NCBI GenBank assembly: GCA_030432115.1
Contig: JAUIHY010000002.1
Coordinates: 1 to 39,913 of the forward strand
DNA from: Gammaproteobacteria bacterium
GTDB taxonomy: Bacteria; Pseudomonadota; Gammaproteobacteria; Xanthomonadales; Marinicellaceae
Reading direction: 5' to 3'
DNA: 39,913 nt
Made by a program: the position numbers and the translations under genes. The notes below the pieces were generated by a model. That model was not told the DNA's origin and did not search any database. It worked only from the letters and a program-made list of their open reading frames with translations. Position 1 is the stretch's first letter. Every line of letters begins with the position of its first letter. Of the stretch, positions 4,867 through 39,913 are shown piece after piece.

Positions 4867-6057
4867 ATGTCAAAAGAGAAATTTGAACGCAATAAGCCCC
4901 ATGTAAACGTGGGCACAATCGGTCACGTTGACCATGGTAAAACAACCTTGACTGCAGCGATCACTAAAGTTGCTGCTGAAAAACAAGGCGGCGAATTTAA
5001 AGATTACGATCAAATCGATAATGCGCCAGAAGAAAGAGAGCGTGGTATCACGATTTCTACAGCGCACGTAGAGTACGAAACTGATGATCGTCACTACGCG
5101 CACGTTGACTGTCCAGGCCATGCTGACTATGTGAAAAACATGATTACCGGTGCGGCTCAAATGGACGGCGCGATTTTGGTGGTATCAGCTGCTGATGGCC
5201 CAATGCCACAAACACGTGAGCACATCTTGTTGGCACGTCAGGTTGGCGTACCTTATATTGTTGTGTTCTTGAACAAATGCGACCAAGTTGATGACGAAGA
5301 GTTGTTGGAATTGGTTGAAATGGAAGTTCGTGAGTTGTTGAACGACTACGAGTTCCCTGGTGATGACACACCATTGGTTATGGGTTCTGCTTTGAAAGCA
5401 TTGGAAGGCGACACGTCTGACATCGGTGCACCGGCTGTATTGAAGTTGTTGGATGAGATGGACGCCTACATTCCTACGCCAGAGCGTGAGACTGACAAGC
5501 CATTCTTGATGCCTATCGAGGACATTTTCTCAATTTCAGGCCGTGGTACTGTTGTAACAGGTCGTATTGAAACTGGTGTTGTAAACGTTGGTGAAGAGAT
5601 TGAAATCGTTGGTATTCGTGACACCACTGTGACTACTTGTACTGGTGTTGAGATGTTCCGTAAGTTGTTGGATTCAGGTGAAGCTGGTGACAACGTGGGT
5701 GTTTTGTTGCGTGGAACGAAAAGAGATGAAGTTGAGCGTGGACAAGTACTGGCAAAACCGGGTACAATTACGCCCCACACAAAATTCGAAGCAGAAGTGT
5801 ACGTGTTGAGCAAAGATGAAGGTGGTCGTCACACACCATTCTTCAAAGGCTACCGTCCACAGTTCTACTTCAGAACAACAGACGTGACTGGTGCTTGTGA
5901 ATTACCAGAAGGTGTAGAAATGGTAATGCCTGGCGACAACGTTAAGATGGTTGTTGAATTGATTGCACCGATTGCGATGGACGAAGGTTTGCGCTTCGCG
6001 ATTCGTGAAGGTGGCCGTACAGTAGGTGCGGGTGTTGTGGCTAAAATTATCGAATAA
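4867..6057 (+). CDS. tufB: Elongation factor Tu, copy 1
   Basis: EF-Tu carries aminoacyl-tRNA to the ribosomal A site and hydrolyses GTP on codon match. The 396-aa protein has G1 GHVDHGKT at 19-26, DCPGH at 81-85 (catalytic His85), NKCD at 136-139, and the two beta-barrel domains. TTTGGAG lies upstream of ATG 4867. The symbol follows the E. coli position after tRNA-Thr. Its protein is identical to copy 2 at 21223; by eye the DNA is identical from 4862 to 6038, with only three synonymous differences (6039, 6042, 6051) in the last seven codons. It sits between tRNA-Thr and tRNA-Trp as in pseudomonads. Confidence 0.98.
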
Positions 6058-21222: not shown

Positions 21223-22413
21223 ATGTCAAAAGAGAAATTTGAACGCAATAAGCCCCATGTAAACGTGGGCACAATCGGTCACGTTGACCATGGTAAAACA
21301 ACCTTGACTGCAGCGATCACTAAAGTTGCTGCTGAAAAACAAGGCGGCGAATTTAAAGATTACGATCAAATCGATAATGCGCCAGAAGAAAGAGAGCGTG
21401 GTATCACGATTTCTACAGCGCACGTAGAGTACGAAACTGATGATCGTCACTACGCGCACGTTGACTGTCCAGGCCATGCTGACTATGTGAAAAACATGAT
21501 TACCGGTGCGGCTCAAATGGACGGCGCGATTTTGGTGGTATCAGCTGCTGATGGCCCAATGCCACAAACACGTGAGCACATCTTGTTGGCACGTCAGGTT
21601 GGCGTACCTTATATTGTTGTGTTCTTGAACAAATGCGACCAAGTTGATGACGAAGAGTTGTTGGAATTGGTTGAAATGGAAGTTCGTGAGTTGTTGAACG
21701 ACTACGAGTTCCCTGGTGATGACACACCATTGGTTATGGGTTCTGCTTTGAAAGCATTGGAAGGCGACACGTCTGACATCGGTGCACCGGCTGTATTGAA
21801 GTTGTTGGATGAGATGGACGCCTACATTCCTACGCCAGAGCGTGAGACTGACAAGCCATTCTTGATGCCTATCGAGGACATTTTCTCAATTTCAGGCCGT
21901 GGTACTGTTGTAACAGGTCGTATTGAAACTGGTGTTGTAAACGTTGGTGAAGAGATTGAAATCGTTGGTATTCGTGACACCACTGTGACTACTTGTACTG
22001 GTGTTGAGATGTTCCGTAAGTTGTTGGATTCAGGTGAAGCTGGTGACAACGTGGGTGTTTTGTTGCGTGGAACGAAAAGAGATGAAGTTGAGCGTGGACA
22101 AGTACTGGCAAAACCGGGTACAATTACGCCCCACACAAAATTCGAAGCAGAAGTGTACGTGTTGAGCAAAGATGAAGGTGGTCGTCACACACCATTCTTC
22201 AAAGGCTACCGTCCACAGTTCTACTTCAGAACAACAGACGTGACTGGTGCTTGTGAATTACCAGAAGGTGTAGAAATGGTAATGCCTGGCGACAACGTTA
22301 AGATGGTTGTTGAATTGATTGCACCGATTGCGATGGACGAAGGTTTGCGCTTCGCGATTCGTGAAGGTGGCCGTACAGTAGGTGCGGGTGTTGTAGCAAA
22401 AATTATTGAATAA
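21223..22413 (+). CDS. tufA: Elongation factor Tu, copy 2
   Basis: This is the second EF-Tu gene, in the tufA position after fusA. Its 396-aa product is identical to copy 1, with the same GTPase motifs (19-26, 81-85, 136-139). The upstream bases CAACA are shared with copy 1; the flanks then differ. The last codons use GTA, GCA and ATT where copy 1 uses GTG, GCT and ATC. The 21-base gap after fusA and the terminator downstream make it the last gene of the str unit. Confidence 0.98.
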
Positions 22414-38038: not shown

Positions 38039-39913
38039 TTAATTTTCAAATCCATCTTCAAAAATCAAATCATCATCAAGATTAATAAGGAAATAATCCA
38101 TGGTCGCGGCCATGATGTCGTTGCGTTTTTGTGCTGAAACAATGGTCTCAAATGGGAACCCCAGGTGTATGACTTTATATACACCTGTATCAACATAGGT
38201 GCAGGCAAATTCACTGCCCACATACTGCATGCAATGGCTTGCTTGACCTTGAGCCTGTAATTCATCGGGGTATTCCACTTGATAGCTGTGTTGTGACCCG
38301 TCATCGAATTGTATGTTATTGATGCCAGCGTAAGGAGAGCCTGACAGGCCATTGGCCTCATAAGTACCCGCATCATCTGACCAGTAAGCGGTCATCAGGG
38401 TGTTGTTGTAGAAGTTTTGATCCGACGCTGTTCCCAAGTTATCCAAATCCCAAGCGATTTCCGCACCTGAAATAAACAATTGGCCACCTTGTTTTAAATA
38501 CTGACTGATGAGCGCTTGTTCGGTGCTTGATAAAGTCGTGCCTTGGCTGGACTCTTCTCCCAAAATCCAAAGGACTGCATTGTAATCATTCAATGTCACA
38601 GCACCCGATTCAACCGCTTCATTGCTGCTGGAATCGAAGGCCACCACAGCATCCGTTAATGCATCACCGTGCTCAATCACATAATCAAAGCGGTTCATTT
38701 GCCGCACATACATGCGGTCAACAAAACCACCGATGTCAGCGATGTTTTCCGAAATCAATTGTCCTGAATTCAAACGATCAAAACCATTGACCACCAGTAC
38801 TTTATCTTGGCCATAGGGCATCCGAACACCCAAAACCTCTGAATCCAAGGATAAGCCGCCTGCATTTTTGCCTTTGATTTTGATGTATTGGCTTTGGCCA
38901 GGTTGTAAACCGTGAAAACTGTGATTTAGTCCGCTCACTTCAGTGCCGTTGTCAAAGTTTCTACCATCATCAGAACGGTAAATCACATAACTGCTTGCAG
39001 CATCGCCCAATACACCATTGTTGTCTGTGGGTGATGCATGCCAAGAGACCTTTAAAGTCTGGTTGTTTTGACTTGCCGCAATTAATTGCTCAGGTGGTTC
39101 AGGTAACAGGTGTGCTGTGGTGCCATCACGTTGGGCAAAATATTTCACAATACCTTGGTAAACTGCACGCGCAGCGAGCTTTCTGAATTGTGGGTGGCGC
39201 AGGGCGTCGGCATCCTCTTGGTTGGAGTGAAAGGCCAATTCAATCAGAACCGAAGGCATTTCATCATTGTGGTTTGGGTTCACTTCACCAAAATAAGCCG
39301 AACGTAGGCCGCGGTCTTGCCAATTGTTATCCCATGCCGCTTGGATGTCGTTGATGATTTCATTGTGGATGGCACTTTGCAATTCGGAAGAACCTGCCAC
39401 TGCTTGGGTGTCATCATAAGTACCATCAGGTGGATTTGAAGAATAAATATAGGTATTGGTGCCGCGTGCGGTTTCTGGACCTGCGTTGGAATGCCAAGAA
39501 ACGTACAAAGCATCTTCGCCATTGTAATATTCCCAGTCGGCAAATCGTGAACGGGCAGATACATCGCCATTACCATAAACAGAACTGCTGGCCCCTTGGT
39601 ATTGTACCCAAGGTCTGGCACCTTCTTCCCAGCGTGGGTGGCCACTGACCACATCATGATAATTGCCACGGACATCGCCCATGCCGCCACCCAAACGCAC
39701 AGCATCGGCCGAAACCGTGGTGCCAGCTTCGTTAGAATGATTACTTAAGCGAATGTGGTGATCACCACCTGCAGTAAAATAAAACACACCCAAATGGTTC
39801 CACAAATACCGATGTTTTTGTTGGTTAACTGTAAACACAGTATCAATGCCACCGTGCCTGATGGTGTATTTGGCATCGCTGGGTCGGTTGCCATTACCTG
39901 AATAAGAAACATA
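38039..39913 (-). CDS. Secreted N-acetylmuramoyl-L-alanine amidase, 5' end outside window
   Basis: The frame stays open to the window edge (first visible residues YVSYSGNGNRPSD), so this is the C-terminal 624 residues of a longer protein; the GTG at 39838 is internal. Order from the edge: a golvesin C-terminal-like beta domain (about 1-74, ending VSADAVRLGGG); Amidase_3 segments with SWHSNAG (zinc His141) and VLIELAFHSN (catalytic Glu225); an FN3-like domain (about 268-370); a roughly 240-residue domain with LWILGEESSQG and QYLKQGGQLFISGAEIAWD; and an acidic tail LDDDLIFEDGFEN. The first zinc motif (GHGG type) is not seen and should lie upstream of the golvesin domain. The role is cleavage of cell-wall peptide from MurNAc, probably outside the cell. 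Confidence 0.85.
   Translation of the reverse strand, partial: YVSYSGNGNRPSDAKYTIRHGGIDTVFTVNQQKHRYLWNHLGVFYFTAGGDHHIRLSNHSNEAGTTVSADAVRLGGGMGDVRGNYHDVVSGHPRWEEGARPWVQYQGASSSVYGNGDVSARSRFADWEYYNGEDALYVSWHSNAGPETARGTNTYIYSSNPPDGTYDDTQAVAGSSELQSAIHNEIINDIQAAWDNNWQDRGLRSAYFGEVNPNHNDEMPSVLIELAFHSNQEDADALRHPQFRKLAARAVYQGIVKYFAQRDGTTAHLLPEPPEQLIAASQNNQTLKVSWHASPTDNNGVLGDAASSYVIYRSDDGRNFDNGTEVSGLNHSFHGLQPGQSQYIKIKGKNAGGLSLDSEVLGVRMPYGQDKVLVVNGFDRLNSGQLISENIADIGGFVDRMYVRQMNRFDYVIEHGDALTDAVVAFDSSSNEAVESGAVTLNDYNAVLWILGEESSQGTTLSSTEQALISQYLKQGGQLFISGAEIAWDLDNLGTASDQNFYNNTLMTAYWSDDAGTYEANGLSGSPYAGINNIQFDDGSQHSYQVEYPDELQAQGQASHCMQYVGSEFACTYVDTGVYKVIHLGFPFETIVSAQKRNDIMAATMDYFLINLDDDLIFEDGFEN

Follow-up and report, generated by a model that had tools for sequence, protein, structure and literature searches.

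We found that the amidase encoded at the end of a gammaproteobacterial contig finishes in a short tail, with the consensus D-[LIV]-I-F-x-[DN]-G-F-[ED], that closes at least 31 proteins of the same genome. We have little doubt that this tag is itself real, and it quite probably has a role in sorting or localization. Our tentative leading explanation is that it is a lineage-specific soluble sorting tag of exoproteins that would be secreted by Sec and type II secretion and then retained non-covalently at a cell surface coated with the surface-layer protein NpdA. The window, that is, the whole stretch of DNA that we analyzed, is one entire contig of 39913 bases, and the 5' end of the amidase gene runs off it.

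The amidase tail and its recurrence on exported proteins

The features of the amidase gene are as follows.

38039..39913, minus strand: truncated tag-bearing exported amidase gene, its 5' part lost at the contig end
39692..39913, minus strand: Golvesin_C domain (PF25275), incomplete at the end of the contig (61.6 bits, over the Pfam cut-off)
39146..39520, minus strand: Amidase_3 domain (PF01520; 54.5 bits, over the Pfam cut-off)
38834..39097, minus strand: fn3-like domain (24.1 bits, slightly under the Pfam cut-off of 25)
38093..38701, minus strand: last folded region ahead of the tag, alpha/beta (pLDDT 53-91 in the ten-residue blocks 391-590)
38042..38080, minus strand: C-terminal tail LDDDLIFEDGFEN, predicted to be flexible (stop codon at 38039-38041)
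38045..38071, minus strand: tag DLIFEDGFE, followed by one N and the stop (core IFEDGFE at 38045-38065)

An earlier note on this DNA had read the amidase as ending in LDDDLIFEDGFEN, and the minus strand at 38042-38080 reads exactly so. The last folded region ahead of the tag (38093..38701) had no match over the cut-off in Pfam or NCBIfam. Seven complete orthologues, all from close relatives, are 915-952 aa long and have an apparent signal peptide. In an alignment of 11 orthologous sequences D590, I592, F593, and F597 are invariant; the middle of the tag drifts (DG, DD, DS, SA, NS, and ND), and the stretch immediately upstream is variable. The structure model is a modest one (mean pLDDT 57); its final helix stops at residue 582, and pLDDT is below 50 over residues 587-599. 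The tag is therefore likely to sit on a flexible tail. Elsewhere in the window, two tuf genes (4867-6057 and 21223-22413) lie within a cluster of ribosomal protein and RNA polymerase genes, and their translations look identical; such paired tuf genes are ordinary in proteobacteria.

The DNA of the same genome (2.54 Mb) contains 14 matches to F.DGFE and one match to the reversed pattern. Eleven of the 14 sit 0-17 codons ahead of the stop of a long frame, and the remaining three are in short or wrong frames. A relaxed pattern, IFx[DNSG][GDE]F[DE], gave 37 matches against none for its reverse, and among the 33 distinct ends that were read, 31 close frames of at least 90 aa no more than 17 codons from the motif. 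One relaxed-pattern match (L390) is spurious, and one frame (L362) is cut by a contig end and has an end identical to that of a 511-aa frame (L384). In a scan of a sequence collection we read at least 121 frames ending in IFxDGFE and a stop. Among the matches listed (121), 89 are long, 67 of them complete and 22 cut, and the other 32 do not reach 100 aa; a signal peptide was called in 58 of the 67 complete ones. The 89 long frames among the matches listed have Asp two positions before the Ile in 62 cases, and their synonymous codons vary freely at every motif position, which indicates that conservation acts at the protein level.

To define a set of carriers, we took stretches around matches in five genomes and kept the 59 proteins in which the motif lies no more than 25 aa from the stop. 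When the tag was removed beforehand, single-linkage clustering placed these proteins in 35 sequence clusters (11 tail proteins in nine clusters for the genome of the window). An alignment of the final 60 residues of these proteins, with a PEP carboxykinase omitted to leave 58, shows conservation in the motif columns only, and no column elsewhere is nearly invariant. The claim that the tail recurs on otherwise unrelated proteins is thus borne out, and its carriers extend well beyond orthologues of the amidase. Among the matches listed, which cover 25 of 51 and 25 of 61 matched families, the carriers are subtilases, glucose/sorbosone dehydrogenases, and proteins with DUF11 and FG-GAP repeats, together with M36-like peptidases, nucleases, a carboxypeptidase, and an arylsulfotransferase.

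The tail is also enriched on secreted proteins, as the earlier note had proposed. A crude script for calling signal peptides scored 47 of 53 tagged proteins as exported and soluble, compared with 170 of 631 non-tail genes in the same stretches. Frames open at the 5' end were excluded from this test, which is why it takes 53 rather than 59 tagged proteins, and most of the six that were missed look like wrong starts. One of the 47, the PEP carboxykinase of G005, is a cytoplasmic chance match that was wrongly scored as exported; it is one match of the 59. A lipobox was present in none of the 47 tagged exported proteins, compared with 18 of the 170 other exported ones, and the tagged proteins are not lipoproteins.

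Distribution and position of the tag

We surveyed a panel of 151 genomes of the order, in which the matches to F.DGFE sum to 1799 and are very unevenly spread. With our own threshold of at least eight matches, 65 genomes are tail-rich (8 to 77 matches), and the other 86, here called tail-poor, have 0 to 7, mostly 0 to 4; the reversed pattern gave mostly 0-2 matches in the 151 genomes. In a sample of 299 genomes of the phylum, for which the pattern was anchored at the stop and TGG was also admitted, only 12 had a tail match, two of them inside the order and the other 10 with one match each. Many genera of one order have the tail in abundance; in this phylum sample its frequency is close to noise. 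Among the matches listed, its long-frame carriers include Marinicella, Dokdonella, Tahibacter, and Pseudofulvimonas, as well as Chiayiivirga, Rudaea, Wenzhouxiangella, and Pseudolysobacter, and these are the Xanthomonadales- and Marinicella-like lineages to which the earlier note had attributed such a tail. Matches in clearly unrelated taxa (e.g., Listeria, Clostridium, Vibrio, and Grimontia) are, among those listed, in frames of less than 80 aa. Three metagenome-assembled contigs that are labeled Oceanospirillales (L213), Sedimenticola (L285), and Alcanivoracaceae (L298) carry long cut tag frames and, if the labels are taken as given, count against a strict restriction of the tag to the order. 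Sedimenticola also appears in the npdA table of PMC10765051, as excerpted. We also read 30 loci from 18 low-copy genomes, and most were chance frames, so the idea that such genomes hold dedicated one-to-one pairs was rejected; genuine tags were found in four of these genomes (G009, G012, G092, and G117).

Within proteins, the tail stands nearly always at the very C-terminus, where 0-17 further residues are allowed. There are exceptions, however: the motif follows the signal peptide directly or shortly in three proteins (L059, L092, and L103), and in four (L101, L102, L123, and L125) it is internal, probably at domain borders. We take L103, whose motif lies close to the signal peptide, to be a DUF1800-like protein; its gene has a DUF1501-like neighbor. 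One protein (L188) has a tandem pair of tags. The presence of the tag near the N-terminus and inside proteins argues that it acts as a linear epitope and not as an anchor that is cut off. The description "C-terminal sorting tag" in the earlier note accordingly fits the place of most copies but not of those behind a signal peptide or inside a protein. After their internal tag, L101 and L102 have in common a region of about 190 aa (the last 193 residues).

The families to which tagged proteins belong suggest a further property of the tail. Among the matches listed, tagged proteins matched the NCBI families of myxosortase-dependent M36 (6), rhombosortase-dependent M36 (4), and T9SS-dependent M36 (2) peptidases, and also the choice-of-anchor models Q (5), B (1), and D (1). 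Choice-of-anchor families close with different signals in different lineages. These matches place the tail where other lineages have their sorting signals. Several tag-bearing genomes encode glucose/sorbosone dehydrogenases with the tag, or a drifted version of it, at the end: IFADGFESLP in G063, IFADSFE in G132 (5 matches, under the tail-rich threshold), IFATGFE and IFADDFE in G031, FFESGFEN with 11 further residues in G097, and LFADGFEGG after added DUF11 repeats in G091. One dehydrogenase copy of G031 ends in a mere IMKGGFD, the dehydrogenases of two genomes with a few tags, G092 and G117, lack the tag at their ends, and those of seven tail-poor genomes (G007, G018, G035, G049, G082, G102, and G137) have another end sequence. 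The dehydrogenases of tail-poor f8 genomes (L337, L338, L340, L341, and L342) share another type of C-terminal region, some 130 aa long (NDAWFDPxTxGQG...), which is possibly a counterpart anchor domain.

Type II secretion, the NpdA surface layer, and the proposed role of the tag

We looked for genes whose occurrence follows that of the tag. Of the 65 tail-rich genomes, 58 have a GspL of at least 45 bits, and so do 27 of the 86 tail-poor ones; as a strict partner, however, GspL was rejected, since it gave no match in G063 and G097 despite their tags. A gspD gene exceeded the cut-off in 22 of the 24 genomes searched. All 11 tail-rich genomes are among these, and six of the 11 have two copies (G000, G005, G021, G073, G091, and G110). 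Among 13 tail-poor genomes, 11 have at least one gspD and only G117, with its few tags, has two. The genomes with no gspD over the cut-off are G019 (4 motif matches) and G001 (1), and the two G019 motif loci that we read are chance frames. Two type II secretins are common in tail-rich genomes: a gspC-D-E cluster encodes a protein of about 635 aa, and the NpdA-linked cluster encodes one of about 720 aa (L321-L324). At 20 loci, where the gene caller performs poorly at high G+C, no extra gene was seen in the GspL-type cluster of tail-rich genomes. Single-linkage clustering of the neighbors of tag genes in five genomes gave no clear partner, returning tag proteins, housekeeping genes, and generic families. 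Rhombosortase was rejected as a partner as well: it exceeded its cut-off (84 bits) in 12 of the 151 genomes, G097 being the one tail-rich genome among these 12, and four further tail-rich genomes (G028, G113, G150, and G143) scored 74-83 bits, under that cut-off. Matches at E up to 0.001 occur in all 151 genomes. The earlier note had called for a search for a co-occurring processing enzyme or secretion system; rhombosortase fails in that role, and the best co-occurring gene that we found belongs to the NpdA surface layer.

This gene came to light in four type II clusters (in the genome of the window, G005, G063, and G097), where one protein family is encoded behind gspD, separated from it by a small gene in three of the four. 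The family matches a protein of Comamonas odontotermitis (E 1e-27, 74% of the query) whose gene comes after a gspE-to-gspD cluster and ahead of an ABC exporter. In excerpts of PMC10765051, Comamonas odontotermitis is listed as a carrier of npdA and gsp genes are described upstream of npdA, and the npdA list in the same excerpts includes Chiayiivirga, Rudaea, Tahibacter, Dokdonella, Wenzhouxiangella, and Sedimenticola, likewise Rhodanobacter denitrificans and Lysobacter, and Beta- and Gammaproteobacteria beyond the order. We therefore call the family NpdA, on the basis of homology and locus rather than comparison with the type NpdA sequence. The four NpdA sequences from these clusters had no match in Pfam or NCBIfam at E up to 1, and a sequence search of the PDB returned no credible relative of either NpdA or the tag.

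NpdA, called as present at E up to 1e-10, occurs in 63 of 65 tail-rich and 38 of 86 tail-poor genomes, which are related and not independent observations. The two tail-rich misses are both incomplete genomes (G045, 80%; G076, 67%), and G133 (5 matches, 84% complete) also has no NpdA. Raising the tail-rich cut-off from 8 to 10 gives 60 of 62 against 41 of 89. The contrast is sharpest in families f2 and f12, where NpdA is found in all five tail-rich genomes and in one of 43 tail-poor ones. The tail-poor genomes with NpdA fall in f8 (20), f9 (14), f1 (three, including G083 with 7 matches), and f12 (one). NpdA is also present in G063 and G097, the tagged genomes without a GspL match. At least two NpdA matches were found in 35 of the 65 tail-rich genomes (counted up to at least ten) and in four of the 86 tail-poor ones, G083 among them. 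The NpdA-like genes (L322 9521-10918 and those of the panel) reach at least ten matches in Marinicella relatives, and frames of 940-1000 aa (G113, G028, G108, and G143) seem to contain two NpdA units. Because NpdA is common without tags, both in those 38 of 86 tail-poor genomes and outside the order, where the tag is near noise, it can be at most necessary for the tag and not sufficient. Shared ancestry could be the source of much of the association, since related genomes are being compared and the tag is associated with canonical GspL about as well. The Fisher p-values for the panel ignore relatedness and do not count as independent evidence; the within-family contrasts offer better support.

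We suggest that tagged proteins would be exported through Sec and then by type II secretion, and that some component of the surface, with the NpdA layer itself or a protein encoded at its locus as the likeliest candidates, would afterwards hold the tag non-covalently. In this way the coated cell surface would retain tagged enzymes and repeat proteins. Docking of this kind is favored over cleavage by the lack of a transmembrane helix, the predicted disorder of the tail, the N-terminal and internal copies, and the one tandem copy. That the partner in docking is the NpdA surface is a step that we can put forward only tentatively. A bolder version is more speculative still: a position-flexible docking peptide of nine residues may tie secreted proteins by the dozen (enzymes, subtilases, propellers, and repeat proteins) to the NpdA layer, and perhaps to NpdA tubes around vesicles, which would be the first case of a general address tag serving a protein surface layer in Gram-negative bacteria.

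It is also conceivable, though rather unlikely in our judgment, that the tag is an export signal read by the periplasmic type II system, which would select substrates for the outer-membrane step and have no later role. The presence of gspD in 11 of 11 tail-rich genomes searched, with two copies in six, would fit such a signal, as would the distribution of GspL (58 of 65 against 27 of 86). GspL without tags is common, however (f9 genus g12 and f1 genus g4), G063 and G097 are tagged without a GspL match, and tags are absent outside the order in the phylum sample, 10 single-match genomes apart. To our knowledge, most bacteria with a type II system have no such tag. Furthermore, NpdA is itself regarded as T2SS-exported in excerpts of PMC10765051, yet the tag is absent from the four NpdA sequences that we read, one of them 3'-truncated; this is mild evidence for docking rather than for export through the NpdA-linked system.

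An enzymatic role, in which the tag would be a cleavage or transpeptidation site for a sortase-like enzyme (at Asx-Gly, for example) that attaches the protein to the surface, is improbable. The D/N-G core, the C-terminal place, and the many-per-genome pattern do resemble sorting substrates, and the M36 and choice-of-anchor families are named after such signals elsewhere. Nevertheless, the Asp and Gly are not strictly required, with DG, DD, DS, SA, NS, and ND all found in the 11 amidase orthologues, the substrate has no transmembrane helix to hold it, cutting at N-terminal and internal copies would be destructive, and rhombosortase exceeds its cut-off in a single tail-rich genome, with the four others at 74-83 bits against 84. 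We consider it very improbable that the tag protects from, or marks for, periplasmic proteolysis or quality control in a manner unrelated to location. An exposed C-terminal tail on exported proteins could serve in this way, but a free C-terminus is not needed, given the 0-17 extra residues, and near-N-terminal copies exist. Periplasmic proteases are also widespread, and the patchy distribution of the tag does not follow them. Finally, a few single matches, such as the PEP carboxykinase of G005 and those in wrong frames, do arise by chance, but the probability that chance, low complexity, or a common last domain accounts for the tail as a whole is close to negligible, in view of the reversed controls (14 against 1 and 37 against 0), the 35 clusters among 59 proteins with the tag removed, the lack of a near-invariant column outside the motif, and the free synonymous variation within it.

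The tag provides a route from sequence alone to candidate surface-bound exoproteins of a large and mostly uncultured bacterial group, and our analysis names a concrete candidate receptor locus (NpdA). If surface-layer docking is correct, the tag would be a small non-covalent display signal that works without a membrane anchor and could be used for cell-surface display, and NpdA layers and nanopods would gain a function as enzyme scaffolds. If it is instead a type II signal, it would be relevant to substrate recognition by type II systems, a problem of long standing.

Comparison with known sorting systems

Among the papers listed, a search of the open-access literature found no description of the tag or of the idea. 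With E values of up to 10 allowed, the last 60 residues of 58 tails matched 23 Pfam and 13 NCBIfam families (the HMMER filters remove most matches above E ~0.1), and no sorting-signal model was among them. The earlier note had remarked on the lack of a hydrophobic helix or Arg cluster, and the tails that we read end 0-17 residues past the motif with neither a helix nor a basic cluster.

Some features of the tag nevertheless recall established signals. Like GlyGly-CTERM, the substrate signal of rhombosortase, it is a short C-terminal signal found on unrelated exported proteins, several per genome, with a patchy distribution between species and overlapping protein families (M36), as far as excerpts of PMC3237569 describe that system. 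It differs in having no tripartite motif, transmembrane helix, or basic cluster and in tolerating other positions. The pattern of occurrence is the same as that of PEP-CTERM and exosortase in those excerpts (PMC3237569). The tag has no Pro-Glu-Pro, helix, or basic cluster, however, and its consensus is D-[LIV]-I-F-x-D-G-F-E. The carrier families of PEP-CTERM, such as the choice-of-anchor proteins, overlap with those of the tag. MYXO-CTERM, the signal of myxosortase, likewise occurs dozens of times per genome and is carried by M36 peptidases, according to excerpts of PMC11980579. Unlike that signal, the motif described here has no invariant Cys and no helix. The C-terminal domain of type IX secretion is, like the tag, a soluble C-terminal signal of exported proteins, but it is a folded domain of roughly 80 residues and the tag has about nine, and no NCBIfam model of such a domain matched the final 60 residues of the tails. 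With respect to the surface itself, NpdA is known as a lattice protein in excerpts of PMC10765051 and PMC3110197, which contain no description of docked tagged proteins; set beside the tag, the NpdA layer and nanopods of these sources supply a candidate receptor locus, a surface-layer gene that follows a type II cluster.
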